The notes beneath the pieces are model-generated. The model was given only the letters and a program-made list of their open reading frames with translations, was not told where the DNA came from and made no database searches. Source: a virus. Taken from it: 23,773 bases of DNA. The stretch lies in the IMG/VR virus record IMGVR_UViG_3300026455_000060, positions 1-23,773 of that record. One strand, given 5' to 3'. The stretch's first letter is position 1, and every line of letters begins with the position of its first letter. Of this stretch, positions 1,789-23,467 are shown one piece after another. The position numbers and the translations under genes were made by a program.

Positions 1789-3188
1789 TGGCAGAAGAAA
1801 ACCGAGAACCGCTGAAGTACGACCCGAGTGTCATCGGCACGTCGGGTCTGCGTGCGTACGGCGGGTATGTCCAAGAGGAGGCCGAGCGCGACCTGCGCGG
1901 TCTCAACGGCTCGCGCATCTACCGCGAGATGGCTGACAACGATCCGATTGTCGGCGCGGTGCTGTTCGCAATCACGATGCTGATAAGACAGGTCGAGTGG
2001 CGCGTGCAGGCAACCGACGACTCGCCGGAGGCCGAAGGCGCGAAGCAGTTCGTCGAGGAGGTCATGCACGACATGAGCGTGTCGTGGAACTCCGTCATCA
2101 CCGAGGTCTGCTCGATGTTCACCTACGGCTATGCGCCGATGGAGATCATCTGGAAGCGTCGCCTCGGCTCGGACTCGACGGACCCGACCGGACGTAGCGT
2201 CTACAACGACCGCAAGATTGGTATCCGGTCGCTGTCGCTCCGTGCCCAGAACACGATCCCCAAGTGGGAGATGGACAAGGACGACGGCAGCATCGTCGGT
2301 CTCTGGCAGCAGCCGTACGACCGCGGCATGGTCTGCATCCCTATCGAAAAGCTGCTGCTGTTCCGCACCTCCGAGGAGCGCAACAACCCGGAGGGCCGCA
2401 GCGTGCTACGCAACGCGTACCGCCCGTGGTTCTTCAAAAAGCGCATCGAAGAGGTCGAGGCGATTGGCTTGGAGCGCGATCTCGCAGGTCTGCCGATTGC
2501 CTACATCCCGTCCAACTACCTGATGCAGGGCGCGGACAAGCTCGACCGGCAGGTCGCCGAGGAATACAAGCGGCTGATCCGCAGCATCAAGCGCGACACG
2601 CACGAAGGCTTGGTCCTTCCGTCGACGCGTGATAGCAGCGGGAACCTGATGTTCGAAATCAAACTGCTGTCGACGGGCGGCTCCCGCCAGTTCGACACCA
2701 GCAAAGTCATCGAACGCTACAACAAGGCGATTGCGACCAGCGTCCTCGCTGATTTCATTTTCCTTGGGCAGGGATCGACAGGCAGTTTCGCGCTGTCGTC
2801 GAACAAGACAGAAATCTTCGCCACCGCAGTCGGCGCGTACACCAAAGGCATCGCCGAGGTGTTCAACCGTCACCTGCTGCCGCGGCTCTGGAAGCTCAAC
2901 GGGATGGACCACGAGGTCATGCCGTCGCTGGTCCCGGGCGATCTGGAAAAGCCGGACCTGACTGCGCTGGGCGAGTTTGTCAGCAAGCTCACTGCGTCGG
3001 GCGCAACGCTGTTCCCCGACCGCGAACTAGAGAACCACCTGCGGCAGGCGGCTGGCTTGCCGCTCGCCCCAGAGGAATCTATGGGCGACGACTTCGTGCC
3101 AGATATGGAAGCGACGCCGACCGACGAGCAGGCGACGCCTGTCGTGCCGGAGGCGCTGCCTACCGACGGGGAGAACAGCAATGGCTGA
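1788..3188 (+). CDS. Portal protein (DUF935 / Mu gp29-like)
   Basis: Dodecameric ring at one capsid vertex through which DNA enters and leaves. The N-terminal half matches the DUF935 pattern, with IYREMADNDPIVGAVLFAIT followed by a VEWRV segment. Later come stem/wing-type helices and a Ser-rich GSFALSSNKTEIFATAVGAY region near residues 325-345. The C-terminal ~40 residues are acidic and Pro-rich, probably disordered. The length of 466 aa is normal for the family. AGGAG lies seven bases before the ATG. The gene follows terL with a one-base overlap and runs eight bases into the next gene. No protease, scaffold or MuF gene follows immediately, which is unusual; MuF is at 16998. Confidence 0.88.
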   Translation: MAEENREPLKYDPSVIGTSGLRAYGGYVQEEAERDLRGLNGSRIYREMADNDPIVGAVLFAITMLIRQVEWRVQATDDSPEAEGAKQFVEEVMHDMSVSWNSVITEVCSMFTYGYAPMEIIWKRRLGSDSTDPTGRSVYNDRKIGIRSLSLRAQNTIPKWEMDKDDGSIVGLWQQPYDRGMVCIPIEKLLLFRTSEERNNPEGRSVLRNAYRPWFFKKRIEEVEAIGLERDLAGLPIAYIPSNYLMQGADKLDRQVAEEYKRLIRSIKRDTHEGLVLPSTRDSSGNLMFEIKLLSTGGSRQFDTSKVIERYNKAIATSVLADFIFLGQGSTGSFALSSNKTEIFATAVGAYTKGIAEVFNRHLLPRLWKLNGMDHEVMPSLVPGDLEKPDLTALGEFVSKLTASGATLFPDRELENHLRQAAGLPLAPEESMGDDFVPDMEATPTDEQATPVVPEALPTDGENSNG

Positions 3189-3513
3189 AGAAATCAAACT
3201 CGTGCGTGGCGATAACCGCCCGTACATCAAACTCACGCTCACCAAGTCAGACGGGACAGCTCTCGACGTAAGCGACGCAGACACCACCGTGTCCATCCAC
3301 TTCCGCAGCGTGACAGCGGAGGCGGTGCTAACCACCATCCCTGTCACCAAACTGAACGGAGGTGCGAGCGGCGAAGTGATGTTCAACTTTCCGGGGGCCA
3401 CGCTGAACGTCGACCCGGGGTATTACGAAGGCGAAGTAGAAATCAACTTCGACGGCGAAAAGCAGACGCTCTACGACCGGCTGAAGTTCCTTGTCCGTGA
3501 ACAAATTGCTTAA
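3181..3513 (+). CDS. BppU N-terminal-like virion protein
   Basis: A 110-residue protein predicted to be almost all beta strand. It opens KLVRGDNRPYIKLTLTKSDG, has central DADTTVSIHFRSV, and ends with a GYYEGEVEINFDG segment followed by LYDRLKFLVRE. This pattern resembles the N-terminal domain of phage baseplate upper protein BppU, an Ig-like domain that anchors host-binding parts to the virion. Here it stands alone rather than fused to a receptor-binding region. GGGGAG sits seven bases before the ATG, and the start lies inside the last codons of the portal gene. It is probably an adaptor or decoration protein. The family call is by motif reading only. Confidence 0.6.
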   Translation: MAEEIKLVRGDNRPYIKLTLTKSDGTALDVSDADTTVSIHFRSVTAEAVLTTIPVTKLNGGASGEVMFNFPGATLNVDPGYYEGEVEINFDGEKQTLYDRLKFLVREQIA

Positions 3514-3525
3514 GGAGAAACAACC

Positions 3526-3963
3526 ATGGCTGCAATGACCGACTATCTTGAGAACAAGCTGATCGACCAGCTGTTCCGCGGGCAGGCGTACACCTTCCCG
3601 GCTGGCCTCCACGTTGGGCTGCTCACCGCGGCTCCGTCCGACACGGGCGGTGGCACCGAGGTGTCTGGCAACGCCTATGCGCGTCAAGACCTCGCCCCGT
3701 CGCTTACCAACTGGGCGGGCACGCAGGCCGCTGCTTCGACGACTGCGTCGTCCGGAACGAGCGGCACCACGAGCAACAACGTGGCGATCACGTTTCCGAC
3801 TCCGACGGCCTCGTGGGGTACGGTGACGCACTTCGGCGTGTGGGACGCGTCGACGAGCGGCAACCTGCTGGTCTACGGTGCGCTCAACATCGCCAAGACG
3901 ATCAACCAAGGCGACACCGTCACCTTCCCGATCTCGTCGCTGTCGTTCCAGATCGACAACTAA
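3526..3963 (+). CDS. Small virion/tail-tip protein, conserved phage type
   Basis: A 145-residue protein beginning with a short helix (YLENKLIDQLFRGQ), then a beta-rich body with LHVGLLTAAPSDTGGGTEV, the GNAYARQ motif and a Ser/Thr/Gly-rich middle. It ends VTFPISSLSFQIDN. Proteins with this layout are common beside tail-fibre genes in environmental phages and are usually called structural or tail-fibre-associated; I know no proven function. A strong AAGGAG precedes the ATG. It lies 12 bases after the BppU-like gene and 21 bases before the Ala-rich repeat gene, inside the host-contact cluster. The short, glycine-rich sheet could form a trimeric knob. Confidence 0.6.
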   Translation: MAAMTDYLENKLIDQLFRGQAYTFPAGLHVGLLTAAPSDTGGGTEVSGNAYARQDLAPSLTNWAGTQAAASTTASSGTSGTTSNNVAITFPTPTASWGTVTHFGVWDASTSGNLLVYGALNIAKTINQGDTVTFPISSLSFQIDN

Positions 3964-3984: not shown

Positions 3985-6351
3985 GTGGCGGTATTTAATA
4001 CCCCGGTCCTCAACCAAGCCGTACTCAACGGCTCGGCTGGGGAGGTTCATGCGCTCGCGGCCTCCGTCTCGGGGGTCGCGGGTGCTTCCGCGTCCCTATC
4101 GAAAACTGCTCGGCTAGCCAGCACCGCCACCGGCGTTGCATCAGCGTCTGCTGGGCTGGCAGTCAGCAAGCCGCTCGGCGCATCCTTCGCTGCGCTGGCG
4201 ACATCTACCGCGATCACCAGCGTCGCGTACCGCATCGCCTCGACGGCGACCGCCGTCGCAAGTACGACGGCTGGGCTGACGCGTGCGGCAAACCTTGGTG
4301 CGACCGGCTTTGGCCTTGCCACCGCCACCAACACCTCCGTTGCCCTGTCTGTGCCACTCGGTGGCACGGGCGCAGCGCTCGCTGGCGTTACCGTCCCGCT
4401 TTCGGTCACCAAGGGGCTGGCTGCGGCGGTTAGCAGCGCAGCGACGGCGGCTGGCAACACGAGCCAGACCGCTCCGCTCATGGCGGGCGTCGCCGCGATC
4501 AGTACGGCTGGCAACGCTACGCTCGACAAGACGGCCCCGCTCGCAGGCAGCCTCTCGGCGTCGGCGACAAGCAGCACCTCGACCGACGTCTCCAAGCCGC
4601 TCGCGGACTCCGCGATTGCCACCGCAACAGCAACGGGCAACATCACCGTTGCGTTCGTCGCAGATGCGAACGCTGCGGCAACGGCAACCGCCTCGGTTAG
4701 CGCCACCCTCGACAAGCCACTCGGTGCGTCGGTATCCGGCGACTGCTTGGCCTCGACCGGCAGCGCGATCACGAAGCCGCTCGGGTGCGGTGCGACGGCG
4801 GTTGCCAGCGTCAATGTCGACCTTGCTCATGCCCTGTACGCCAGCGGCGTAGCCATCTCCTCGGCAAGCGCCTCGGCGGGTATCACCAAGCCCGCAGAAG
4901 GCGCAACGCAGGCCGAGGCTGCGGCTACGGCTACCCTTGCCCTTACCAAGCCCGTGGATGCGGCTGTTGGGGCTACAGCGGCGGCTACAGCGGCCCCGGT
5001 GGTCGCCTATATCGTCGAGGGCGCGGCGGTGGCGGCGGTGGCGGCTACGGCTGGCCTTGCCAAGACCGCCGTGCTGGGCGGTGCATCGGCGGCGGCGGCG
5101 TCGGGCGATGGCTCGCTCCAGTTCCTGATCCCGATTGAGGGCGCTGCGGTCGCGCAGGCAACGGCGACGGCTGACCTCGCCAAGTCCGCGAATCTCACCG
5201 TCACCGGCGTCGGCGCTGTTGCCAACGCTGGGCAGGCCGACCTCGCCGTTACCAAGCTCATCGGGGTGGCGTCGCAGGCGCGTAGCGCTGCAACGGCCTT
5301 CACCTCCGTCGCCTACGTCGTCGCAGGCACGAACAACGCAGACAGCAGCGGCGCAGCTGGGCTAGCGGTTACCAAGAACATCGGCACGGCGGCGGCAGCT
5401 ACCGCGACCGCCATAGTATCGCCAGCCGTTAGTAAGCCGCTCGGTGGCGCGTCATACGCAACGCAGACCGCTACAGGCGTCACCTCGGTCGCCTACATCG
5501 TCGGGAGCAACTCGACGGCGCAGGCGGCGTCGCAGGCAGGACTTGGCGTCACCAAGAACATCGGCACCACGGTCGCCGCTACCTCGTCCTCGACTGGCGC
5601 TCCGCTGGTCGACTTCGTGTTGGCGACCACGGCAAGCGCGTCGTCGAACGGCTACGGCCTGCTGTTCCTCAACGTCCCGCTCGGCGCGTTCGGCGTCGGT
5701 CGGGCCGAGTCGACCGCCGGTGCCGATGTCACCAAGATCATCGGCGCGTCGGGCATCGCGTCGGTTAGCACCTCTGCTGCTGCACTCGGCCTGACGGTCA
5801 ACATGACTGCCAGCGCCACCGCCGGGGTCACCCCGGGCGCGTCGGCAGAGATGGCGCTGACCAAGAACATGGGCGCGGTATCGCAGGCCGACCCGGATGC
5901 ATTGGGCGGCGTGGATGTGGTCAAGCCGCTCGACGGCCTTGGCGCAGCGAACGCCGACACCTACGCCGAAACGTCGGTGGCCTACGTCGTCGACGGCATC
6001 GCCTACGCGCAGGCCGACGGCAACGGCGGTATCACGCTCACGATACCGCTTGGTGCAGACACCGCGGTCTACAACTACGGCTTCGCATCGGTCGACACGA
6101 CGCTCGCGCTCACGGTCAACCTTGAGGCGGCTGCTGTCGCGCAGATGACCGTCGCCAATGCGCGTCTCAAGAGGATAATTTTCGGAGAATTCAGCGCGAC
6201 GGCCTCGGTTATGGACGCCGCTGCCCTGTCCGCGGTTGCCGATGTCGGCTATACCGTCTACGTGCAGGGCGTCGTGTACGCAGCCACGGTTGATGGCATC
6301 ACGGTGCAAGCAGAGATCATGGACGCTTACGAACTGAAGAGGGCTGCGTAA
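3985..6351 (+). CDS. Ala-rich repeat protein, probable fibrous virion component
   Basis: A 788-residue protein made almost entirely of degenerate repeats of about 20 residues. Repeat signatures include LxVTKPLGAxxxAxATATA, SVAYIVxG and VTKNIGT. Composition is dominated by Ala, Thr, Ser, Val and Gly, with almost no Cys, Trp or His. Small and hydrophobic residues tend to alternate, suggesting a beta-solenoid or trimeric beta stalk. The first ~20 residues (MAVFNTPVLNQAVLNGSAGE) are not repetitive and may be an attachment segment; the last ~70 are also less regular. The start is GTG with no clear ribosome-binding site, so read-on from the gene 21 bases upstream is likely. The stop overlaps the tail fibre start by one base. 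I cannot assign a family. A structural role is inferred from position and repeats. Confidence 0.65.
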   Translation: MAVFNTPVLNQAVLNGSAGEVHALAASVSGVAGASASLSKTARLASTATGVASASAGLAVSKPLGASFAALATSTAITSVAYRIASTATAVASTTAGLTRAANLGATGFGLATATNTSVALSVPLGGTGAALAGVTVPLSVTKGLAAAVSSAATAAGNTSQTAPLMAGVAAISTAGNATLDKTAPLAGSLSASATSSTSTDVSKPLADSAIATATATGNITVAFVADANAAATATASVSATLDKPLGASVSGDCLASTGSAITKPLGCGATAVASVNVDLAHALYASGVAISSASASAGITKPAEGATQAEAAATATLALTKPVDAAVGATAAATAAPVVAYIVEGAAVAAVAATAGLAKTAVLGGASAAAASGDGSLQFLIPIEGAAVAQATATADLAKSANLTVTGVGAVANAGQADLAVTKLIGVASQARSAATAFTSVAYVVAGTNNADSSGAAGLAVTKNIGTAAAATATAIVSPAVSKPLGGASYATQTATGVTSVAYIVGSNSTAQAASQAGLGVTKNIGTTVAATSSSTGAPLVDFVLATTASASSNGYGLLFLNVPLGAFGVGRAESTAGADVTKIIGASGIASVSTSAAALGLTVNMTASATAGVTPGASAEMALTKNMGAVSQADPDALGGVDVVKPLDGLGAANADTYAETSVAYVVDGIAYAQADGNGGITLTIPLGADTAVYNYGFASVDTTLALTVNLEAAAVAQMTVANARLKRIIFGEFSATASVMDAAALSAVADVGYTVYVQGVVYAATVDGITVQAEIMDAYELKRAA

Positions 6352-9300
6352 TGGCAATCCTGTATAAAAACAACGCGGTGTCGGCGCTGGCGAGTAGCAT
6401 CACCAACGTCGCCACGTCGATGTCCGTCACCGCCGGTCAGGGAGCGCTGTTCCCGACGATCTCCGGCTCGGACTACTTCTACGTCACGATCATCTCGTTC
6501 AGCAATCCAAGCTCCTACGAGATCGTGAAGGTCACGGCGCGGTCGACAGACACGTTCACCATCGTTCGCGCACAGGACGGCACAACCGCCGCGGCGTGGT
6601 CTGCGAATGATCGCGTCGAGCTTCGCATTACCAACGCATTACTTTCGGACGCGCTCGGCGAGCGTGCGCTAGTCGGCGGCACCAACGCGACTGGAACGTG
6701 GCCTATCGGCGTCACGGGAAACGCTGGCACAGCAACGACGCTCGCAACGGGCCGCACGATTGCCTTAACGGGAGACGTTACAGGCACCAGCGGCACGTTC
6801 AATGGTTCTGCGAACCTGTCGTTCGCCACGACGCTCGCCAACAGCGGAGTCACGGCTGGCACCTACACGAAGGTGACTGTCGACGCGAAAGGTCGCGTCA
6901 CGACTGGCGCGTCACTTGCGTCCGGCGATCTGCCGACGTACACCGGCACCCTCACCTCGTCGCAAGTCACGACCGCTCTCGGCTACACGCCGTTGTCCAA
7001 CGCCACGAGCTACCTGCCGCTCACCGGCGGCACGCTGTCCGGTGCTTTATACGGCAACGTCTTGTATGACAACAGCTATCGCGCCATGTCCGCTGTTGCG
7101 ATGGATATGCCGCGCAACATCGGAGCGTCCACCAATCTCAGCACAGACCTTGAGGCGGGTGGCGCGTACAGCAGCTACGGCTCTGCCAACACAAGCTGGG
7201 ACGCTCCATTTTCATACGGCGGTGTAATCGGGCTGGCGTTCGGTAGCGGGATTCGCGCCCAACTTGGGTTCGATATTCGGCACAACAACTCGGACTACGG
7301 AAACCTCTGGATTCGCACCAAGAACAATCTTGGGTATTCCACTTGGAGAACCGTATTGCACTCCGGCAACTACGGCAGCTACTCGCCGTCGTTGACGGGA
7401 AGCGGTGCCAGCGGAACGTGGGGCATCAGCGTTTCCGGTAACGCCGCAACGACGTCACAGCGCAATTTCAGCGGCGACATTTCTGCTACCGGTCAGGGGC
7501 GCTTCACCGGTTGGTACAACGGCAACGCGGCGACGGGACAGGCGGCAGAGATCGGAATGTCTGCTGGTCAGGGCTACATCTTCGTTTACAACCGCGATAC
7601 GTCGACTTACGGCACGCTGAATGTCGCGGCAAGCAGCGCAAACCTTCAGTTTTCGGGCAGCACGATCAACGCCACCTCGGGCGCGTTGCAGCAGGGCGGC
7701 AACCAAGTTCTCCACGCCGGTAACTACACGAGCTACTCGCCTTCCCTGACTGGCTCCGGTGCAAGTGGTACGTGGGGCATCTCCATCACGGGTAACGCCG
7801 CTACCGCGACGTCCGCTACCGACAGCACAAAACTGCCGTTAAGCGGCGGTCAACTCACGGGGCAGGTCGAGTTCCGTTCCGCGAACCAGCTGACGTTCAG
7901 CGATGGCGCGAACACGATGCGCGGGTTCATCAAGAGCCTCGCCAACACCGGCACCGGGGCTGCCGGACTTGTCATTGCGACGTCTGGCGGCGAGTCCATC
8001 GTCTTTAAGGACGGCAACGCCGACTCCGGTGACATCAACTTTGTCATTCGTGGCGATGGGGTACTCCTCCAAGGCGGCTCCAATACGCTGCTTCATGCTG
8101 GTAACTACAGCAGCTATGCACTCCCCATAAGTGGCGGGACGTTGACGGGCAACCTTTCGTTTTCCGCATCCAACCCGTCGATTACCTCCGGCGGCAGCTA
8201 CATCACGATCCCGAATGGCGCGTACTTCAGCGGCGGGACGGTGTACGTCAGCAATCAGATGCAGATTCGTGGGGGACTTGCGAACGACGTCGCATCGGAA
8301 CTCGTCTTTAACGGCGGCACCTCTGGCATAACCAGAGCGACCGGTGTTCTGCGTGTTGAAGGAAGCGCTATTCGCCAAGGAAATAACCTTGCTCGCCCAA
8401 TCGTCAACTGGAGTGCAGGCGGCGCATCAAGCGGCATGGTGATCTTCAAGTTGCCGGGAGGCTCTGGCAACTACGGCATGGTTCACATGGTGTTTGACAT
8501 CTACGAGTACGACTCGCCGAGAGTGGCGACCGTAATCGTCGGCGGTCATAACTGGAGTGGCAATTGGTACAACACCGCGTGCAATGTCCTTGGCTACACC
8601 GACAAGCAAATCCGTCTTGGATTTAAGGACGGTCAGTACTGCGTAGTATTTGGTACGTCCGGATCATCGTGGTCGTACGGCACCATTGTGCTTCGCAAAA
8701 TCCACAATGGTGGGTTCTATGACAACGTCATGGACTTGGGCGGCTCATACACCGCCGCGCAGACGACCACCGAGTCCTTTAGCGCAGTCACCGGAGACCT
8801 GCGGGCAACAAGGTCACCGGCATCTCACGAAGTGTGGGGCATCCTTTACGGATACAACAGCGTTCGCTCCAACATCTTCTACGATACGGACAACACCGGT
8901 TACTACTGCGACCCAGCCTCGTCATCCCGTCTCAGCACCATTTATTGCGGCGACGTTTACAACGACCTCGGCGGCTGGTTTCGCAACTACGGCGCGACAG
9001 GTATTTACAACCAGTCGTACGGAAATCACTTTTACTCGGATTCCGGTAACTACTGGAACGTCTCATTGGGCGGTAATTCAAACGGTGGCATCCGGTTCCG
9101 CGATAACCACGCGGGGACGATTCGCGGCTATGTGTACGCCGATACCGGCAACAACATAGGCTTTCTGAACTCAAGCGGAAGCTGGCGTGCGCGAGTCGTT
9201 GGCGATGACTACTTCCTCGTCGAAGGGTCCTCTGTTCGTGCGCCGATCTTCTACGACAGCAACGACACTGGTTACTACGCAGACCCGAATAGCACCAGTG

Positions 9301-10436
9301 TCCTTAACTACCTGCTGACCCGCCGAGTTAAGTTTATTGGCGAGGGTGGCGACTCCGGTTTAGGCACCGAAGCGTATGCAATCTACCAAGAGGGCGGGTC
9401 GTGGAGTCATCCATACCCTGACCTTCGTATCGCGTTTCACACCGGCATCAAGCTCGGTGCCAACGCGAGCTACCAAGGCATCCGGTTCTACACCGACTAC
9501 GACATGTCCTCGCAGGTCATGTCCGTCAACAACAGCAGCGATGCTCTTGGTGCTGCAAACGTATATGTGAACAACTCTCTGCAGGCTGGAAGCAGCCTGC
9601 GGGCACCAATCTTTTACGACAGCAACGACACGGGATATTACACGGACCCTGCAAGTACCTCACGCATGAACGTGGTTGATTCCAATCGCGTGACGTATCT
9701 GTCGAAGGGCTATGACGCCGTTTATGTTGGCGGTTCCGGGTTGTATCAAATTGGCTATCCAGACACGAACTGGTGGCACATCACGACCTCCGGAACGATG
9801 TCGTTGCTGCTGTCCTGTGGATGGGACTGGGACCGGCAGGTTGGGTTCCACTACACCCCAGCAGCGTCTGGTTCGAACGGCGGCACACTCCGTATCGGGC
9901 AGATGAGTAAGAACTCGTCCGGCTACAACCACACGTACACCTATATGCACATGAACGGTGCAGATAGGTTTTACTGGGACTGGAACGGCGTGTTCCAAGC
10001 ATACGGGGATTGCCGCGCTCCGGTGTTCTACGACTATAACAACACTTCGTATTACGCCGACTTGTCCTCGACCGGAGACTCTATTCGTGCAGCAGGCAAC
10101 ATCACGGCCTACTACTCGGACGAGCGCCTCAAAACACACCTCGGGACAATTCCGAACGCTGTCGACAAGGTCAAGCAGCTGGAGGGCTTCTACTACGAGG
10201 CCAACGCGACGGCACAACGACTCGGATACGAGCCGCGACGCGAAGTTGGCGTTTCGGCGCAGGCGGTGCAGCGCGTACTGCCGGAGATCGTCAAGCCCGC
10301 ACCGGTAAGCGCGGAGTACCTCACCATCGACTATGAGCGGCTTGTTCCTCTGCTCATTGAGGCCATCAAGGAACAACAAACCCAGATCGACGCCGCCGTG
10401 GCTGAGATCAAATCTCTGAAGGAGAAGATGCAATGA
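6351..10436 (+). CDS. Tail fibre protein with C-terminal S74 intramolecular chaperone
   Basis: Long receptor-binding fibre (1361 aa). Residues 1-105 form a virion-attachment type domain, including SYEIVKVTARSTDTFTIVRA then DGTTAAAW, seen at the start of many tail fibres. Shaft repeats follow, with TGNAGTAT, LPLTGGTLSGALYG and HAGNYxSYSPSLTGSGASGT. Four copies of a FYDSNDTGYYADPNSTS-type repeat lie at about residues 842, 966, 1087 and 1225. The C-terminus is a peptidase S74 chaperone: SDERLK begins at S1256, with the Ser/Lys pair expected for self-cleavage (S1256, K1261), and a final coiled coil (EAIKEQQTQIDAAVAEIKSL). In this family the chaperone trimerises the fibre and cuts itself off. A globular, Trp/Tyr-rich part at about residues 690-830 may bind the receptor. 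ATG overlaps the previous stop; the 3' end overlaps the next gene by four bases. Confidence 0.9.
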   Translation: MAILYKNNAVSALASSITNVATSMSVTAGQGALFPTISGSDYFYVTIISFSNPSSYEIVKVTARSTDTFTIVRAQDGTTAAAWSANDRVELRITNALLSDALGERALVGGTNATGTWPIGVTGNAGTATTLATGRTIALTGDVTGTSGTFNGSANLSFATTLANSGVTAGTYTKVTVDAKGRVTTGASLASGDLPTYTGTLTSSQVTTALGYTPLSNATSYLPLTGGTLSGALYGNVLYDNSYRAMSAVAMDMPRNIGASTNLSTDLEAGGAYSSYGSANTSWDAPFSYGGVIGLAFGSGIRAQLGFDIRHNNSDYGNLWIRTKNNLGYSTWRTVLHSGNYGSYSPSLTGSGASGTWGISVSGNAATTSQRNFSGDISATGQGRFTGWYNGNAATGQAAEIGMSAGQGYIFVYNRDTSTYGTLNVAASSANLQFSGSTINATSGALQQGGNQVLHAGNYTSYSPSLTGSGASGTWGISITGNAATATSATDSTKLPLSGGQLTGQVEFRSANQLTFSDGANTMRGFIKSLANTGTGAAGLVIATSGGESIVFKDGNADSGDINFVIRGDGVLLQGGSNTLLHAGNYSSYALPISGGTLTGNLSFSASNPSITSGGSYITIPNGAYFSGGTVYVSNQMQIRGGLANDVASELVFNGGTSGITRATGVLRVEGSAIRQGNNLARPIVNWSAGGASSGMVIFKLPGGSGNYGMVHMVFDIYEYDSPRVATVIVGGHNWSGNWYNTACNVLGYTDKQIRLGFKDGQYCVVFGTSGSSWSYGTIVLRKIHNGGFYDNVMDLGGSYTAAQTTTESFSAVTGDLRATRSPASHEVWGILYGYNSVRSNIFYDTDNTGYYCDPASSSRLSTIYCGDVYNDLGGWFRNYGATGIYNQSYGNHFYSDSGNYWNVSLGGNSNGGIRFRDNHAGTIRGYVYADTGNNIGFLNSSGSWRARVVGDDYFLVEGSSVRAPIFYDSNDTGYYADPNSTSVLNYLLTRRVKFIGEGGDSGLGTEAYAIYQEGGSWSHPYPDLRIAFHTGIKLGANASYQGIRFYTDYDMSSQVMSVNNSSDALGAANVYVNNSLQAGSSLRAPIFYDSNDTGYYTDPASTSRMNVVDSNRVTYLSKGYDAVYVGGSGLYQIGYPDTNWWHITTSGTMSLLLSCGWDWDRQVGFHYTPAASGSNGGTLRIGQMSKNSSGYNHTYTYMHMNGADRFYWDWNGVFQAYGDCRAPVFYDYNNTSYYADLSSTGDSIRAAGNITAYYSDERLKTHLGTIPNAVDKVKQLEGFYYEANATAQRLGYEPRREVGVSAQAVQRVLPEIVKPAPVSAEYLTIDYERLVPLLIEAIKEQQTQIDAAVAEIKSLKEKMQ
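8874..10085 (+). repeat. Four FYDxNDTGYY repeats within the tail fibre
   Basis: Four in-frame copies start near 8874, 9246, 9609 and 10023. They encode FYDTDNTGYYCDPASSS, FYDSNDTGYYADPNSTS, FYDSNDTGYYTDPASTS and FYDYNNTSYYADLSSTG. Copies 2 and 3 are nearly identical, and each is preceded by a S-x-R-A-P segment. Such repeats occur in fibres of many environmental phages and probably form repeated beta knobs or stalk segments. The spacing between copies (about 360-415 bases) means each repeat heads a module of about 120-140 residues. Confidence 0.8.
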
Positions 10437-16997: not shown

Positions 16998-18167
16998 ATG
17001 GGTAGTCAGGGGGCCAAGGGGCGGGTTTTGGGGGATGTTCGGGAGGGCGTTAATCGCCCCCTCCCCCCGGATTACCGCCCTGCTCGGACGGTCGTGCTGA
17101 AGGCACGCTCCGGCGGCCTAGCCGAAATCGAAGCCTTGGCCTTCAAGCTAGAGGCAAACCTCGGAAAGGCCATCCTTGACGCCCTGACGGCCCAGCAAGG
17201 GGCCATTGACGTAGACCTGATCGCCGAAGCCCTGCAGGAGGGCAACATCGGCAAGGTGCTGCGGCTGCTCGACCTCCCCGCAGCCCTTGCCCCGCTGGAG
17301 GCGTTAACGCCCGCCATACAGGCCGGGGCGTACGCGGCTGGGGGCGCTACCGCGGCCCAGATCGCCTTGGGCGTAAAGGGCGCGACGTTCGCCTTCAACC
17401 AGCTGAACCCCCGCCTCCTCACGTGGCTGCAGACCTACAGCCTCGGCCTCATTCGCCAGATCAACGATCAGACGAAGGAAGGCATCCGGCAGTACCTGCT
17501 GGACGGCATGACGGCTGGCGCGAACCCCAAGGAGGTCGCCCGTCAGGTCAAGGGGATCATTGGGCTGACCGACCGGCAGGCCAAGGCGGTGCAGAACTAC
17601 CGCAAGCAGCTGGAGACCTTCCACCAGCGGCGGTCGGCGAGCGGCTTCGGGCTGGGCAACAAAGTGAGCCGCGTCAACGGCACGCAGGTGCTGGCGCTGA
17701 ACCCGGACGGCACGCCCAAGGACGGCATCAACGAGCGCCGCCTGCGCGACTTCCGCTTCGACGGGCAGCTACAGCGTGCGATGGACAACGGCACGCCGCT
17801 CACCAAGGCGCAGATCGACAAGATGGTCGCCGCCTATGAGCGCAAGTACCTCGCGTATCGGTCGCGCACGATTGCCCGGACCGAAGCGACGCGCACCAAC
17901 AACATCGGCATCCAAGACGCGTGGCAGCAGGCGCTAGAGAAAGGCGTCGTCAAAGAGGAACTGACCCGCAAGCAATGGGTGGTCGCCCGCGACGAGCGGC
18001 TCTGCGAAATCTGCGGCCCCATCCCAAGCATGAACCCCAAGAAGGGCGTGAAGCACGCGCAGCCGTTCCTGACACCGGACGGCCCCGTCTCGCTCCCGCC
18101 GATTCACCCGAACTGCCGCTGCACCGTCGTGTATCGCCAGTACGAACCGTCGCAGCTGCAGGAGTAG
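16998..18167 (+). CDS. MuF-type head morphogenesis protein
   Basis: Minor head protein of the phage Mu gpF / SPP1 gp7 family (389 aa), which binds the portal and is packaged in small numbers in the capsid. The diagnostic C-terminal domain is present: WVVARDERLCEICG (residues 327-340, with a C-x2-C pair) and PPIHPNCRC (367-375), preceded by the RSRTIARTEATRTNNIG segment that marks this family. The N-terminal ~120 residues are helical and Ala/Gly-rich. GGGAG is nine bases before the ATG. The gene is unusual in lying about 14 kb from the portal and opening a new transcription unit under operator-like control. In other phages MuF domains are often joined to, or sit beside, toxin domains; here the giant multidomain gene lies three genes away. 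Confidence 0.88.
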   Translation: MGSQGAKGRVLGDVREGVNRPLPPDYRPARTVVLKARSGGLAEIEALAFKLEANLGKAILDALTAQQGAIDVDLIAEALQEGNIGKVLRLLDLPAALAPLEALTPAIQAGAYAAGGATAAQIALGVKGATFAFNQLNPRLLTWLQTYSLGLIRQINDQTKEGIRQYLLDGMTAGANPKEVARQVKGIIGLTDRQAKAVQNYRKQLETFHQRRSASGFGLGNKVSRVNGTQVLALNPDGTPKDGINERRLRDFRFDGQLQRAMDNGTPLTKAQIDKMVAAYERKYLAYRSRTIARTEATRTNNIGIQDAWQQALEKGVVKEELTRKQWVVARDERLCEICGPIPSMNPKKGVKHAQPFLTPDGPVSLPPIHPNCRCTVVYRQYEPSQLQE

Positions 18168-18777: not shown

Positions 18778-19329
18778 ATGGACAACACGAGCGTATCAAA
18801 ACTTGCCGAACGCATCTCGCAGTTATCTGCCGGTGCGGAACGTGTTCTGGAGCAGCTAAATAAAGCCGACCAGACGTACTCGCCGCCAGCTGGCGTGCAG
18901 AGCGCCGCGGCGCGTGGCCTGAAGCTGCGCGAGAAGTGGAACCGCGGCGGGCTGTCCAACGCCGAGGCGTCCGCGCAGGGCATCGGCTCCGGCGTGCAGC
19001 GTGCTGTGAATCTCAAGAACGGCGACGCGATCTCGCAGCAGACCGTGAAGCGGATGCACGCGTTCTTCTCGCGGCACGCGAAGAACTACCGCCCCGACGA
19101 GAAGGAGTCTGACGGCGGCCCGACCGCTGGCACGATTGCGTGGCTGCTGTGGGGCGGCAACGCGGGTCGAGACTGGGCGCAGGGGATCGTCAACGGCATC
19201 GAAAAGATGTCGCCGGACGTCGGTGACGTTCATGTGCCGTCGACCGAGATGCAGAAGCCCGGGCGCAAGACCGGATACGAACTGGCGATGTCTCGGAAAA
19301 AGAGCGCCAAGCCGTCGAAGGGAAGCTGA
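18778..19329 (+). CDS. Conserved phage domain protein, RMxxFFxRH...GTIAWLLWGG
   Basis: A 183-residue protein. After a helical lead of about 40 residues, the conserved part starts with AARGLKLREKWNRGG (residues 44-58), continues through TVKRMHAFFSRHAKNY and ends with GTIAWLLWGGNAGRDWAQ (118-135). This RxxxFFxRH plus IAWLLWGGxAGxxW pattern is a short domain found in many phage and prophage proteins, usually beside head or portal genes, often fused to other domains. Its function is not established. A basic tail follows. GGAG lies seven bases before the ATG, and the giant gene starts one base after the stop, indicating co-translation. Confidence 0.7.
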   Translation: MDNTSVSKLAERISQLSAGAERVLEQLNKADQTYSPPAGVQSAAARGLKLREKWNRGGLSNAEASAQGIGSGVQRAVNLKNGDAISQQTVKRMHAFFSRHAKNYRPDEKESDGGPTAGTIAWLLWGGNAGRDWAQGIVNGIEKMSPDVGDVHVPSTEMQKPGRKTGYELAMSRKKSAKPSKGS

Positions 19330-19330
19330 C

Positions 19331-22300
19331 ATGGCTACCCCTGAAGCAACCGAAGCACGCGCTGCACTCGCCGCCCTCCGTGCCGCCATCAAGGAGGCGG
19401 TTGAGGAGTCCCTGCAGAAGGGGTTCTGGAACCGCTGGCCCTCTGGGTCGCCGGGAGGCGTTGGTGGGCAGTTCGCCCCCAAGGGCACGAGCGGCGGCGG
19501 TAGCGGGGCTTCAGGCGGCTTCAAGAACTACCTTGGTGGCCTGTTTGGGGGCGGCTACGGCAGCGGCTCCTACAGCCCGCCCAAGCCCAAGGGACCGCCT
19601 CCGGGGGCCAAGCCGCACCCGAAGGTCAACGACAAGGGCGCGGCGGTCACGATCAACTACCCAAGCAAGCCGTCGCATCGCAGTACGTGGACCGACCCGA
19701 ACAAGACCGCGGTATTCACCCCGGGCGGAGACGCTCCCGACACGCTGAACGGCGTGGCGATGAAAACGTGGAACCCGCCGAAGGATGGCTGGGCCAAGGT
19801 CACGGGGACCAACGAGAAGCTCGACGCCGATCTGCCGTTTGAGGCGAACCCGAAGAAGTCGGTCGGCGCTGGCGTGCTGATCGTCGAGGACGACGGGCGC
19901 GTGTGGCTCACGCGGCCCACCAACAGCTACGGCGGCTACCAGAACACCTACCCCAAGGGGACCGTCGAGGACGGCCTCACGATGCAGCAGAACGCGATCA
20001 AGGAGGCGTACGAGGAGACGGGTCTCAAAATCAAGATCGTTGGCATCCTCGGGGACTACGAGCGTGACACGTCGAAGGCGCGGTTCTACCTTGCTCGCCG
20101 CACGACCGGTACGCCGAAGAACATGGGTTGGGAGTCGCAGGCGATCAATCTGGCGACACTCAAGGACGCCAAGAAACTCCTGAACCGGACGCACGACAAG
20201 CAGATTCTCGACGACCTAGAGGACTTGCTGTCGTTCGGTCCGCTCAAGAAAGCCAAGGGTCCGGTGTCTGGCGCGTGGACGATGCAGCCGCGCTGGCCCT
20301 CGGGGTCCGCACTCGGCGGGCAATGGAAGGCGATGGGCGCTGACGGCGTGACGCTGCCGCCCAAGATCGCCGGTGGCATCGACGGCAAGAACCCCGTCTA
20401 CCAGAAGAAGATCAACGCGATTCACTCGGCGGCGCAGGCGGGCAATCTTGCCTCGCTCGACAACTTCATCGCCCAGCACAAGGACGCTGACAGCAAGTAC
20501 GCGTCGGGGATGAAGGGAACGTCGCACGTTAAGTGGGGCGCGAGCGTCTATCAGTACGCGGTGCAGGTGCGCGGCGACGTCACGCACAAGACCAAGGCCA
20601 CCGCGTCGGCTGACGCCATTCGTGGCCCCAAGGCGCTCTCCAGCTACGGCACACAGGTTGGCGCGAAGCCGGGAGGCTCCAACCCCGGCGCGATGTACCA
20701 AGAGGGAGGCGATAAGTGGCTGGTCAAGGGCAACGCCCAGAAGGTCAGTGGGAACGTCTCGGATAGCGTCAGCGACGCCCGCGCACGCAACGAGGTGCTG
20801 GCGGCAAAGCTCATGCAGGCCGCTGGCGTCGGTGCGCCAGAAATGCGGCTCGTCGACTTGGAGGGCAAGTACGGCGGCGGGCTTGGTGTCGCCAGCAAGA
20901 TGATGGAAGGCGCTGCCTTCAACCCGAAGAACCCCGCGCACGTTGCCGCGGCGCAGGCGACGTACGCCACGCACGCGTGGCTGGCGAACTACGACGTGCT
21001 GGGCATGGGCTACGACAACACGATCATCACACCGGACGGCAAAGCCGCGTGCATTGACCCGGGTGGTGCCCTGCTCTTTCGCGCTCAAGGCTTGCCGAAG
21101 GGCGAAGCGCACGGCGTGAAGGGTGGCCTGCTCGACGCATCCGCACCGGAACTGACGTCCATGCGGCAGACGACGAAGGAGCAGTCGACCGTATTCGGGT
21201 CCATGACGCAGGCACAGCTGCAGGCCAGCGCACAACAACTGGCGACCGTATCGGACGAGACAATCAAGAAGCTCGTCGACACATACGGGCCACCGAACCC
21301 AGCCGAGAAGGCGGCGCTGGCGCTGAACCTGATTGCACGACGCGACGCGGTGCTGAATCAGATCGGCGGGGCTGCCGCGCTAAAAGCCGCGGAAACCGAC
21401 GACCCCGCATCGTCTGGCGTGATCGCCGCTGCGGCGGCTCAAGCCATCACGATGGACCCGTACACCGCCTACAAAGCCACCAGCGACATGGTGCAAGAGG
21501 CAGAGAAGGCAGCCGCAGAGTTGCTGGCTGACGGCGGGCTTACATCGAAAGAGTTCAAGGTGGCGATGCTCGGCGAGATGCCGAAGGCGGCGCTCACCGC
21601 GCACACCGTTCTCATCTCAAAGATTGCCACGCTGACCAACAACGGCGACCAGACGGGGCTGGCAAACCTCGCGCTGGAGCTTCAGAACACCTACCCCGGT
21701 GTCAGCGGCTTCGACGCGCAGATCAAGAACTTCGCCCGCCTCGGCCTCATCGCGTCAACGATGACGAAGATGGAGTCCGCGCAGGCGATGACGCCACCGT
21801 CCGACGTCCCTGCGAAGCCGGTGTTTACGACCGGCACGAAGTACGCCGATCAGTACTACAACAGCATGGTCGACAAGTTCGCGGCGCAGCACGCGGCAGG
21901 CGACTTGGCGGGGCTGCAGTCCTTCCAAGGGGTAGGCGGCAAGCTCTACGCCGACGGCGTGCCGTGGAAGTCTGGCACGGCGAACGGCCTCAAGGCGGCG
22001 GCATACCACGCCGCGCTCGTCAAAGACCTGCAGGCCAAGCAGGGAGCGCAGGTCACGGCGGCAGCCGCACAGGCTGACAAGGCGATCAGCACGCCGGTCC
22101 CGCCGCCGAAGGACACCAAGCCGCTGCCCGCGATGCCCGACTTCGACAAGGCGTTGTTGCCCACCACCAACAGCAACGCGGCGTCCCACAACAGCAAGGT
22201 GCAGCAAATCAAGGCGTACGCGGAAAGCGGCGACGTCAAGGGACTGCTGTCGCTCAACTACGGGACCAACACCTACGGACACAAGCAGGCGCAGCTGGCG

Positions 22301-23467
22301 AACAACGCGCTGAAGTCGCTCGGCTCCACGCACTTTGTGGTGACGGGGCAGAAGAAGGGCCAGCACCCAGCACTCAACGGGGGCGTTACGCCCCAGCGAG
22401 CCGCGGCAGCCGCCAAGACGGTGGGCCAGCAGCCTCCCCCGCCCCACCCCGCTGCAACGACGGCAAAGGCAGGCAAGGTCAATCTCTCCAAGCTCGACAT
22501 GAGCAAGGCGATTGCGCCGACCATGCCGAAGTTCGCGGCCTCGTCGAAGGCGTGGGTCAACGATCAGAACAACAAGCTCGCGCAGCAGGTGCAGCAGATT
22601 TTCCAGAGCGGTGACTACGTCGCGCTCCGGAACATGACCTACGAATCGCTCGACAAGGAGACCGGGAACATCCTCGGCTCCAAGCCGCTGTCGGAACACC
22701 CCGCGAAGGAACTCAAGGCGTTCTACGACGGCTGCTTGTCCGTGATGGACGAAGTGGCGAACCCGCCGGAGCCGCTGAAGCAGTTCTCGGTGGGACACGC
22801 GACGAGCGTCTCGCAGGTCAGCGCGGCGTTCCCGTCGAAGAAGTACGGGACGACGATCAACAAGGTCGCCAACAACGAGAAGATCGGATTCTGGATTGGC
22901 CTCGGCAAGATCGACAACCCCGACGCGCTGATGCCAAAGAAAACGATGGACGTAACGAGCGCCGATGTGAGTAAGGCGTCGTCGGACTACGTCAAGATGT
23001 CGAGCGGCGCGAAGGCGTTCGTGAAGATGGTGCAGTCCGGTGGCGTGATTTCAGCCTACCGAGCTGGCAAGAAGACCTATCAGGGCCACGACCTGAAGCA
23101 GGTCGCCAGCGAGGCGCTGAAGTACGCGCAGGAGAAGCCAGAGGGCACGACGATCTACCGCTGGCAGAACATGACGCAGGACATGATCAACAAGCTGATC
23201 CAGTCCGGCCCCGGCACCGTCATGCAGTGCAGCGGCCCGATGCCCACCTCGTATTCCCCGACGGCAACTTCCAATTTCGGGCAGCACCGCGTTGAGTTCG
23301 TGTATGCCAAGGGAGCCAAGGCCATTGACTCGCATGGCTCCGGTGGCTATGGAAGTGAGAAGGAAATCAGCATTCTCCCTAACACCCGCTTTATTTTGCA
23401 GAGCATCAAGAAGAACGGGAACCGGTATGACATTCGGGTACTCATGCTGCCGCCCGACTGGACGTAG
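19331..23467 (+). CDS. Giant multidomain protein: Nudix, kinase-like, repeats, ADP-ribosyltransferase
   Basis: A 1378-residue protein, probably virion-carried and host-acting. Seen in order: a leader with RWPSGSPGGVGGQFAPKG (35-52) and a Gly/Pro linker; a Nudix domain (about 178-285; box G210-L232 with E225, E228, E229, G231, but Leu at the usual E7 position and Lys for Arg); a second RWPSGSALGGQW (321-332); a kinase-like domain (about 461-620; WLANYDVLGMGYDN with D555, and IDPGGALLFRAQGLPKG with D576), resembling HipA/PI3K-like kinases; a helical region; four divergent repeats; and a C-terminal ADP-ribosyltransferase (about 1180-1378) with R1277 (IYRWQNM), Ser/Thr motif PTSYSPTATSNFG (1305-1317) and ExE at E1343/E1345. 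ATG at 19331 follows the previous stop by one base; the longer frame to 19136 overlaps that gene and is rejected. A secreted toxin is unlikely, as no signal peptide is visible. Confidence 0.85.
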   Translation: MATPEATEARAALAALRAAIKEAVEESLQKGFWNRWPSGSPGGVGGQFAPKGTSGGGSGASGGFKNYLGGLFGGGYGSGSYSPPKPKGPPPGAKPHPKVNDKGAAVTINYPSKPSHRSTWTDPNKTAVFTPGGDAPDTLNGVAMKTWNPPKDGWAKVTGTNEKLDADLPFEANPKKSVGAGVLIVEDDGRVWLTRPTNSYGGYQNTYPKGTVEDGLTMQQNAIKEAYEETGLKIKIVGILGDYERDTSKARFYLARRTTGTPKNMGWESQAINLATLKDAKKLLNRTHDKQILDDLEDLLSFGPLKKAKGPVSGAWTMQPRWPSGSALGGQWKAMGADGVTLPPKIAGGIDGKNPVYQKKINAIHSAAQAGNLASLDNFIAQHKDADSKYASGMKGTSHVKWGASVYQYAVQVRGDVTHKTKATASADAIRGPKALSSYGTQVGAKPGGSNPGAMYQEGGDKWLVKGNAQKVSGNVSDSVSDARARNEVLAAKLMQAAGVGAPEMRLVDLEGKYGGGLGVASKMMEGAAFNPKNPAHVAAAQATYATHAWLANYDVLGMGYDNTIITPDGKAACIDPGGALLFRAQGLPKGEAHGVKGGLLDASAPELTSMRQTTKEQSTVFGSMTQAQLQASAQQLATVSDETIKKLVDTYGPPNPAEKAALALNLIARRDAVLNQIGGAAALKAAETDDPASSGVIAAAAAQAITMDPYTAYKATSDMVQEAEKAAAELLADGGLTSKEFKVAMLGEMPKAALTAHTVLISKIATLTNNGDQTGLANLALELQNTYPGVSGFDAQIKNFARLGLIASTMTKMESAQAMTPPSDVPAKPVFTTGTKYADQYYNSMVDKFAAQHAAGDLAGLQSFQGVGGKLYADGVPWKSGTANGLKAAAYHAALVKDLQAKQGAQVTAAAAQADKAISTPVPPPKDTKPLPAMPDFDKALLPTTNSNAASHNSKVQQIKAYAESGDVKGLLSLNYGTNTYGHKQAQLANNALKSLGSTHFVVTGQKKGQHPALNGGVTPQRAAAAAKTVGQQPPPPHPAATTAKAGKVNLSKLDMSKAIAPTMPKFAASSKAWVNDQNNKLAQQVQQIFQSGDYVALRNMTYESLDKETGNILGSKPLSEHPAKELKAFYDGCLSVMDEVANPPEPLKQFSVGHATSVSQVSAAFPSKKYGTTINKVANNEKIGFWIGLGKIDNPDALMPKKTMDVTSADVSKASSDYVKMSSGAKAFVKMVQSGGVISAYRAGKKTYQGHDLKQVASEALKYAQEKPEGTTIYRWQNMTQDMINKLIQSGPGTVMQCSGPMPTSYSPTATSNFGQHRVEFVYAKGAKAIDSHGSGGYGSEKEISILPNTRFILQSIKKNGNRYDIRVLMLPPDWT
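20390..22756 (+). repeat. Four divergent helical repeats in the giant protein
   Basis: Repeat cores encode QAGNLASLDNF, AAGDLAGLQSF, ESGDVKGLLSL and QSGDYVALRNM. The units start near residues 354, 838, 947 and 1074 (positions 20390, 21842, 22169 and 22550), each 55-75 residues, with a preceding helix rich in N/Q/K and a following Ala/Lys helix. Pro-rich linkers separate units 2-4. The sequences are diverged beyond nucleotide similarity, so this is a protein-level repeat. Similar units were not seen elsewhere in the window. Confidence 0.6.

Follow-up and report, generated by a model that had tools for sequence, protein, structure and literature searches.

A 20-residue repeat protein encoded next to a gp80-like gene as a probable rope of beaded phage fibres

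Here, we present an analysis of a 788-aa repeat protein encoded at positions 3985-6351 of a viral DNA (IMG/VR record IMGVR_UViG_3300026455_000060; the whole 23,773-nucleotide stretch is referred to as the window). Altogether, our findings make it probable that this protein serves as the rope in a phage fibre built like a chain of beads, on which copies of the gp80-like protein encoded directly upstream are threaded. The pair formed by a gp80-like gene and a gene with a period of 20 residues recurs in many unrelated phages. Fibre I of Ralstonia phage GP4 is said, in a 2023 JMB abstract, to consist of five gp80 dimers linked by an elongated rope protein; to our knowledge, this cryo-EM structure is the sole solved case of a gp80 rope fibre.

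In the model that we propose, the repeat chain would be extended rather than folded into a compact domain. Each 20-residue unit, with two short strands of which one is made of small and the other of bulky residues, would serve as a docking strand for one gp80-like subunit, and ~36 such subunits (~18 dimers) would be strung on the chain, compared with 10 in GP4. The 110-aa protein encoded ahead of the gp80-like protein would anchor the chain to the virion at one end; the load would be borne by the opposite end or, in other members, by a fused adhesin domain. We infer a ratio of about one repeat per gp80-like subunit because the 11 units counted by eye in BcepIL02 gp56 come close to the 10 gp80 chains in 8JOU, although these two numbers derive from different phages. 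Repeat number may determine how long the fibre is. More tentatively, we speculate that repeat number could be a genetically written bead counter, in which one 20-residue unit specifies one gp80-like subunit and the gain or loss of whole units resets the length of a neck or tail chain fibre. If this is true, a large unannotated repeat family (~10 to >60 units) sets fibre length in phages of many bacterial phyla. Likely ropes can now be recognized by their sequence repeat in many phages, in genes labelled "hypothetical", "minor tail protein" or worse, and whether repeat number determines bead number and fibre length becomes a directly testable question. We found no description of this repeat in the open-licence literature of PubMed Central.

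The repeat chain and its gene cassette

The genes in this part of the window are arranged in the order terminase, Mu-type portal, 110-aa protein, gp80-like protein, repeat chain, and 1361-aa S74 fibre. The genes for the 110-aa protein, the gp80-like protein, and the repeat chain form a compact cassette, in which the repeat chain comes third; the S74 fibre gene follows and lies outside the claimed rope. The relevant features are:

3181..3513, + strand: 110-aa protein, first gene of the cassette; Pfam and PHROG matches weak, none significant
3526..3963, + strand: gp80-like protein of 145 aa, presumed bead; PF23140 "Podophage GP4 fiber I protein gp80", E 8e-48
3985..6351, + strand: presumed rope, 788-aa repeat chain; GTG start; period 20; begins 21 nt after the gp80-like gene
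3985..4041, + strand: N-terminal motif resembling FNxxxLNxxxLNG; Asn10 and Asn15 near-invariant in 26 relatives (alignment A2)
4012..6195, + strand: array of 36 units of ~20 residues by Viterbi parse; consensus A-S-A-T-A-S-A/G-x-L-x-V-T-K-P-L-A-G-A-A-S
6196..6348, + strand: C-terminal tail without clean repeats; the parse degrades past residue 737
6351..10436, + strand: 1361-aa tail fibre with a C-terminal Peptidase_S74 chaperone domain; PF13884, E 2e-10, and tail-fibre PHROGs

An earlier note, made from the letters of the window, had described an Ala-rich protein of ~20-residue repeats without a recognized family, and both points are borne out. Alanine accounts for 205 of the 788 residues (26%). 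In a BLOSUM62 self-comparison, the protein peaks at lags 20 (0.44), 40 (0.39), and 60 (0.33), all above the best of 200 shuffles (−0.01). A 20-column Viterbi parse scores 251, compared with a mean of −267 and a maximum of −237 in 50 shuffles, and delineates 36 units between residues 10 and 737, of which 28 are exactly 20 residues long and the others 18-24. Because the parse profile was partly trained on this protein, independent evidence for the period comes from the autocorrelation. Lag 40 is lower than lag 20, and no higher-order 40-residue (dimer) period is seen. In each unit, which contains a run of small residues and an L-x-V-T-K-P-L segment, small or hydrophobic residues alternate with polar ones, and the 36 units of period 20 form a long chain that could present many equal docking sites. 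Among the motifs said to recur, VTKNIGT is present twice and SVAYIV once; VTKPLGA is absent in its literal form, with VSKPLGA and ITKPLG in its stead. Tandem Repeats Finder detects only short runs of 3-12 bp in the DNA of the gene, and the lack of long-period DNA repeats argues that the units are old and diverged. Starts resembling FNxxxLNxxxLNG are also seen by eye in BcepIL02 gp56 and Itty13, as are C-terminal ends in ...VA or ...AA in several relatives. Neither Pfam, PHROG, nor NCBIfam models at E≤1 nor PDB sequences match the 788-aa protein, and none of the 26 aligned relatives has a convincing family.

In addition to PF23140, the adjacent gene matches PHROG 240 "head protein" (E 2e-32), and profile A1, built from seven gp80-like relatives, matches PDB 8jou_a (E 9e-22), which comprises 10 chains; these matches point to a gp80-family gene beside the putative rope gene. 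In many records, members of this family are labelled "head protein", "major capsid protein", "tail tube B" or "glycosyl hydrolase". Because gp80-like proteins are a fibre component in the GP4 structure, such a label, including that of PHROG 240, seems wrong. Of 253 loci, 52 contain a relative of the 110-aa protein; a gp80-like ORF is also present in 50 of these 52, at a median distance of 4 nt. By analogy with the Ig-fold protein gp36 of phage LSH1, we regard the 110-aa protein as a candidate virion anchor. As markers of the morphotype, baseplate J and tape-measure proteins were searched for and matched in 0/11 and 1/11 (weakly), respectively. Elsewhere in the window, directly 3' of a Mu F-like head gene (16998-18167), a 1443-aa ORF (19136-23467, + strand) carries a NUDIX domain (PF00293, E 5e-12); its final ~150 residues look ADP-ribosyltransferase-like by eye, and its TTG start may be placed too early.

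Co-occurrence with gp80-like genes and array length among relatives

Relatives were collected as 80 loci in viral contigs by portal search and 80 by gp80-like search, with three in common, and as 80 further loci in bacterial genomes by the gp80-like profile. In the gp80-like loci, the lag test was run on 2524 ORFs that lie on the same strand and encode at least 140 aa; 158 exceeded z 6, with a best lag of 20 in 105, 40 in 18, and 60 in 4. Co-occurrence was counted over 137 loci (167 distinct gp80-like sequences minus 30 with <1.5 kb downstream), and a period-20 ORF was found in 91 of them: 47/60 viral loci, 40/65 bacterial loci, and 4 of the first 12 named phages. By the same test, 46 of the 137 have no such ORF. 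Among 69 loci without a gp80-like gene, which are portal-anchored or fragments of differing length and therefore an imperfect match to the gp80-like loci, two have a period-20 ORF; one (L002) is a fragment of the same virus as the window, and in the other (L016) the repeat chain is present and no gp80-like gene was detected. The period-20 ORF starts at most 120 nt from the gp80-like gene in 52 of 100 loci with one downstream, a count that also takes lags 21 and 41 and near-duplicate loci, and at least one gene lies between in the others. Across 90 parsed proteins, 1435 units were delineated, of which 1104 have a length of exactly 20 residues, and counts reach 64 units per protein; the parse profile, trained on 13 sequences, favours a length of 20, which leaves the lag test as the cleaner evidence. 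Some of the chains (L010, L117, L170, and L172) have a long non-repeat N-terminal domain ahead of the repeats.

Direct searches with the chain were blank. tblastn with the 788-aa protein gave no match in phages, probably an effect of low-complexity filtering, which masks Ala-rich sequence, and neither did searches with L128 against phages and with L170 against phages and plasmids. A protein scan of bacterial genomes found no relative, whereas the gp80-like profile did find loci there. PDB matches of repeat profile A4 to an Spt20-like protein and ribosomal eL29 were taken as composition matches.

Several named phages carry the repeat. Directly after the gp80-like gene, lag 20 is found in Ochrobactrum phage POI1126 gp16 (z 9.1) and Sinorhizobium phage PBC5 gp13 (z 3.5), and lag 40 in Mycobacterium phage Faith1 gp24 (z 5.3), in which 13 units of 20 residues can be counted by eye; Venkman gp51, labelled ubiquitin ligase (lag 20, z 17), lies several genes away. 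Tested as single sequences, the Lessievirus proteins do not pass the lag test (BcepMigl z 1.3); in a profile of six sequences that includes Pseudomonas phage Itty13, lag 20 is best. In phiCbK, the gene after the gp80-like gene gives no period-20 signal, and the accessible text of the phiCbK paper names neither gene. For phage JC1, the available part of the report lists gp53 (gp80-like) among the proteins found in virions, and gp54, at the rope position, is absent from its mass-spectrometry list (PMC9144972).

The suggestion that such repeats expand and contract held up. Repeat number varies among related phages, mostly by whole 20-residue units. In a survey of 38 pairs with at least 40 common six-mers, from which near-identical pairs were left out, five of seven within-array indels of at least 10 residues in close pairs are exact multiples of 20: 80 residues in L110/L112, 20 and 60 in L115/L116, 20 in L147/L168, and 40 in L170/L172, which also has four indels of 1-2 residues. 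The two exceptions, of 11 and 62 residues, separate the window from its relative L007. Outside the arrays, a 20-residue indel in L243/L252 is located in a separate Trp-rich tail, and indels of 15 and 2 residues in L098/L105 lie ahead of the repeats. In two distant pairs (34-38% identity), indel lengths are mixed.

Some loci have a different layout. Repeat ORFs lie on each side of the gp80-like gene in L012 (4654-6084 and 6872-9358) and in L010 (6647-7489 and 8326-11037); could these be two ropes with one common bead protein? L012 also has a very strong 27-residue period in an ORF close to the contig end (10422-11414). Near the rope, large proteins in L243 (8244-10994, z 36) and L087 (10223-12448, z 39) have an exact 17-residue period; the former ends with an S74 domain, the latter is labelled FhaB-like, and the two represent a further class of repeats in phage fibres. 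In Psychrobacillus and Sporosarcina phages (L086, 8399-9424; L093, 8403-9323), the protein after the gp80-like protein seemingly has, by eye, about five 20-residue units followed by another domain, and the lag test is negative.

Predicted fold and alternative readings

The earlier note had suggested a long rod next to the tail fibre, to be abandoned if structure prediction gave low confidence throughout or if related phages lacked the gene. An elongated repeat protein adjoining a tail-fibre gene is what we find, and the relatives have the gene; a self-standing rod or trimer fares less well, and the evidence instead favours a chain on which the product of the gp80-like gene immediately upstream is carried in many copies. 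With AlphaFold2, confidence for the full-length chain is indeed low (mean pLDDT 39.7), an outcome tempered by a 160-aa array of eight units modelled with a 104-row repeat alignment, which yields 16 regular strands, two of ~7 residues per unit (pLDDT 68.5, pTM 0.62). The low full-chain confidence is in keeping with a chain that depends on its beads, and it matches a puzzle in the 2026 LSH1 paper.

The eight-unit model raises the alternative that the repeats fold by themselves into a two-sheet parallel beta-solenoid rod for which gp80-like subunits are unneeded. The alternation of small and polar residues is compatible with such a rod, and VIA-align superimposes the fragment model on the SufD beta-helix (Z 13.3, 159 residues, 2.5 Å), although its notes call this level common for repeats. 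However, two of five eight-unit fragment models score only 34 and 29, AlphaFold2 is described in the available text of PMC11795689 as giving unrealistic beta-solenoids for repeat sequences, and Lys (37%) at column 12, in the apparent inward register, and Pro (30%) at column 13, in a strand, are odd for a stacked solenoid. Foldseek finds nothing in the PDB at E<0.001; matches in BFVD are weak, among them the uncharacterized phage protein A0A6J5Q3G6 (prob 0.96, TM 0.69, E 0.25). Because of the over-prediction and the awkward Lys and Pro columns, we do not rely on the solenoid fold, which also leaves the tie to gp80-like genes unexplained, and we consider this alternative unlikely.

Less likely still is the trimeric fibre shaft supposed in the earlier note. 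Trimers are common among phage fibres, the repeat gene adjoins the S74 tail fibre, and the monomer models are poor. In the closest solved relative, however, it is reportedly the bead (10 gp80 chains in 8JOU) and not the rope that is the repeated oligomer, and no solved shaft is matched by sequence. That the protein is a low-complexity linker, with the period a by-product of composition or codon bias, is very improbable: its alanine content and the scores of shadow reading frames on the repeat profile speak for it, but shuffles that keep the composition abolish the period, and L243 and L252, among others, have an exact 20-residue period at an Ala content of 10-11%.

The rope reading remains the one that we favour. 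Counted against it are the absence of 8JOU chains from the matches of the repeat and Lessievirus rope profiles, the 46 gp80-like loci without a period-20 ORF, the low proportion of positives among the first named phages, the unlisted JC1 gp54, the L016 chain without a detected gp80-like gene, the two indels between the window and L007, and the modelled beta-solenoid, which could represent an autonomous fold.

Comparison with known systems

Fibre I of GP4 (PDB 8JOU) shares with the window a homologous gp80-like gene and, reportedly, an elongated partner. It differs in its 10 gp80 copies, compared with ~36 units in the window. Neither the repeat profiles nor the Lessievirus rope profile A5 matched an 8JOU chain by sequence. 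We dismissed a hit of A5 on a Clp protease (E 0.008) as chance. The neck fibre of Anabaena phage A-1(L), formed by gp80-gp82, is likewise a bead-chain fibre on the neck, with five per particle; however, according to the accessible part of its description, gp81 trimers linked head to tail serve as the beads, with no rope (PMC10966104). We take the gp80 name common to A-1(L) and GP4 as a coincidence.

In the Lessievirus (Bcep22-like) phages, BcepIL02 gp56 resembles the repeat chain in its position directly after the gp80-like gene, its period of 20, and its Asn-bearing start, and differs from it by having ~11 units and low Ala.

In Alishewanella phage LSH1, the available text describes gp34-gp36 as a module of virion proteins always found together, with an Ig-like gp36, a gp35 that matches 8JOU_g, and a gp34 whose beta-helical part is predicted badly; the authors leave this unexplained and name a repetitive motif as one option (PMC13243795). 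As in the window, three genes travel together, one of them matching 8JOU_g and one being long and poorly predicted. The same text states that Slicko01 holds gp34-like domains (PMC13243795); from its size and repeats, we infer that the protein meant is the 1850-aa protein of Slicko01, which, like that of the window, has a period of 20 (z 12.6, at residues ~1020-1720). The 121-aa protein of Slicko01 gave no significant match to gp80-like profile A1 by Hhalign. In LSH1 and Slicko01, the repeats share one protein with a fused lyase-like domain, whereas in the window they form a separate 788-aa chain. The rope reading offers an answer to the question left open in the LSH1 paper, namely why one domain of this module always predicts badly.
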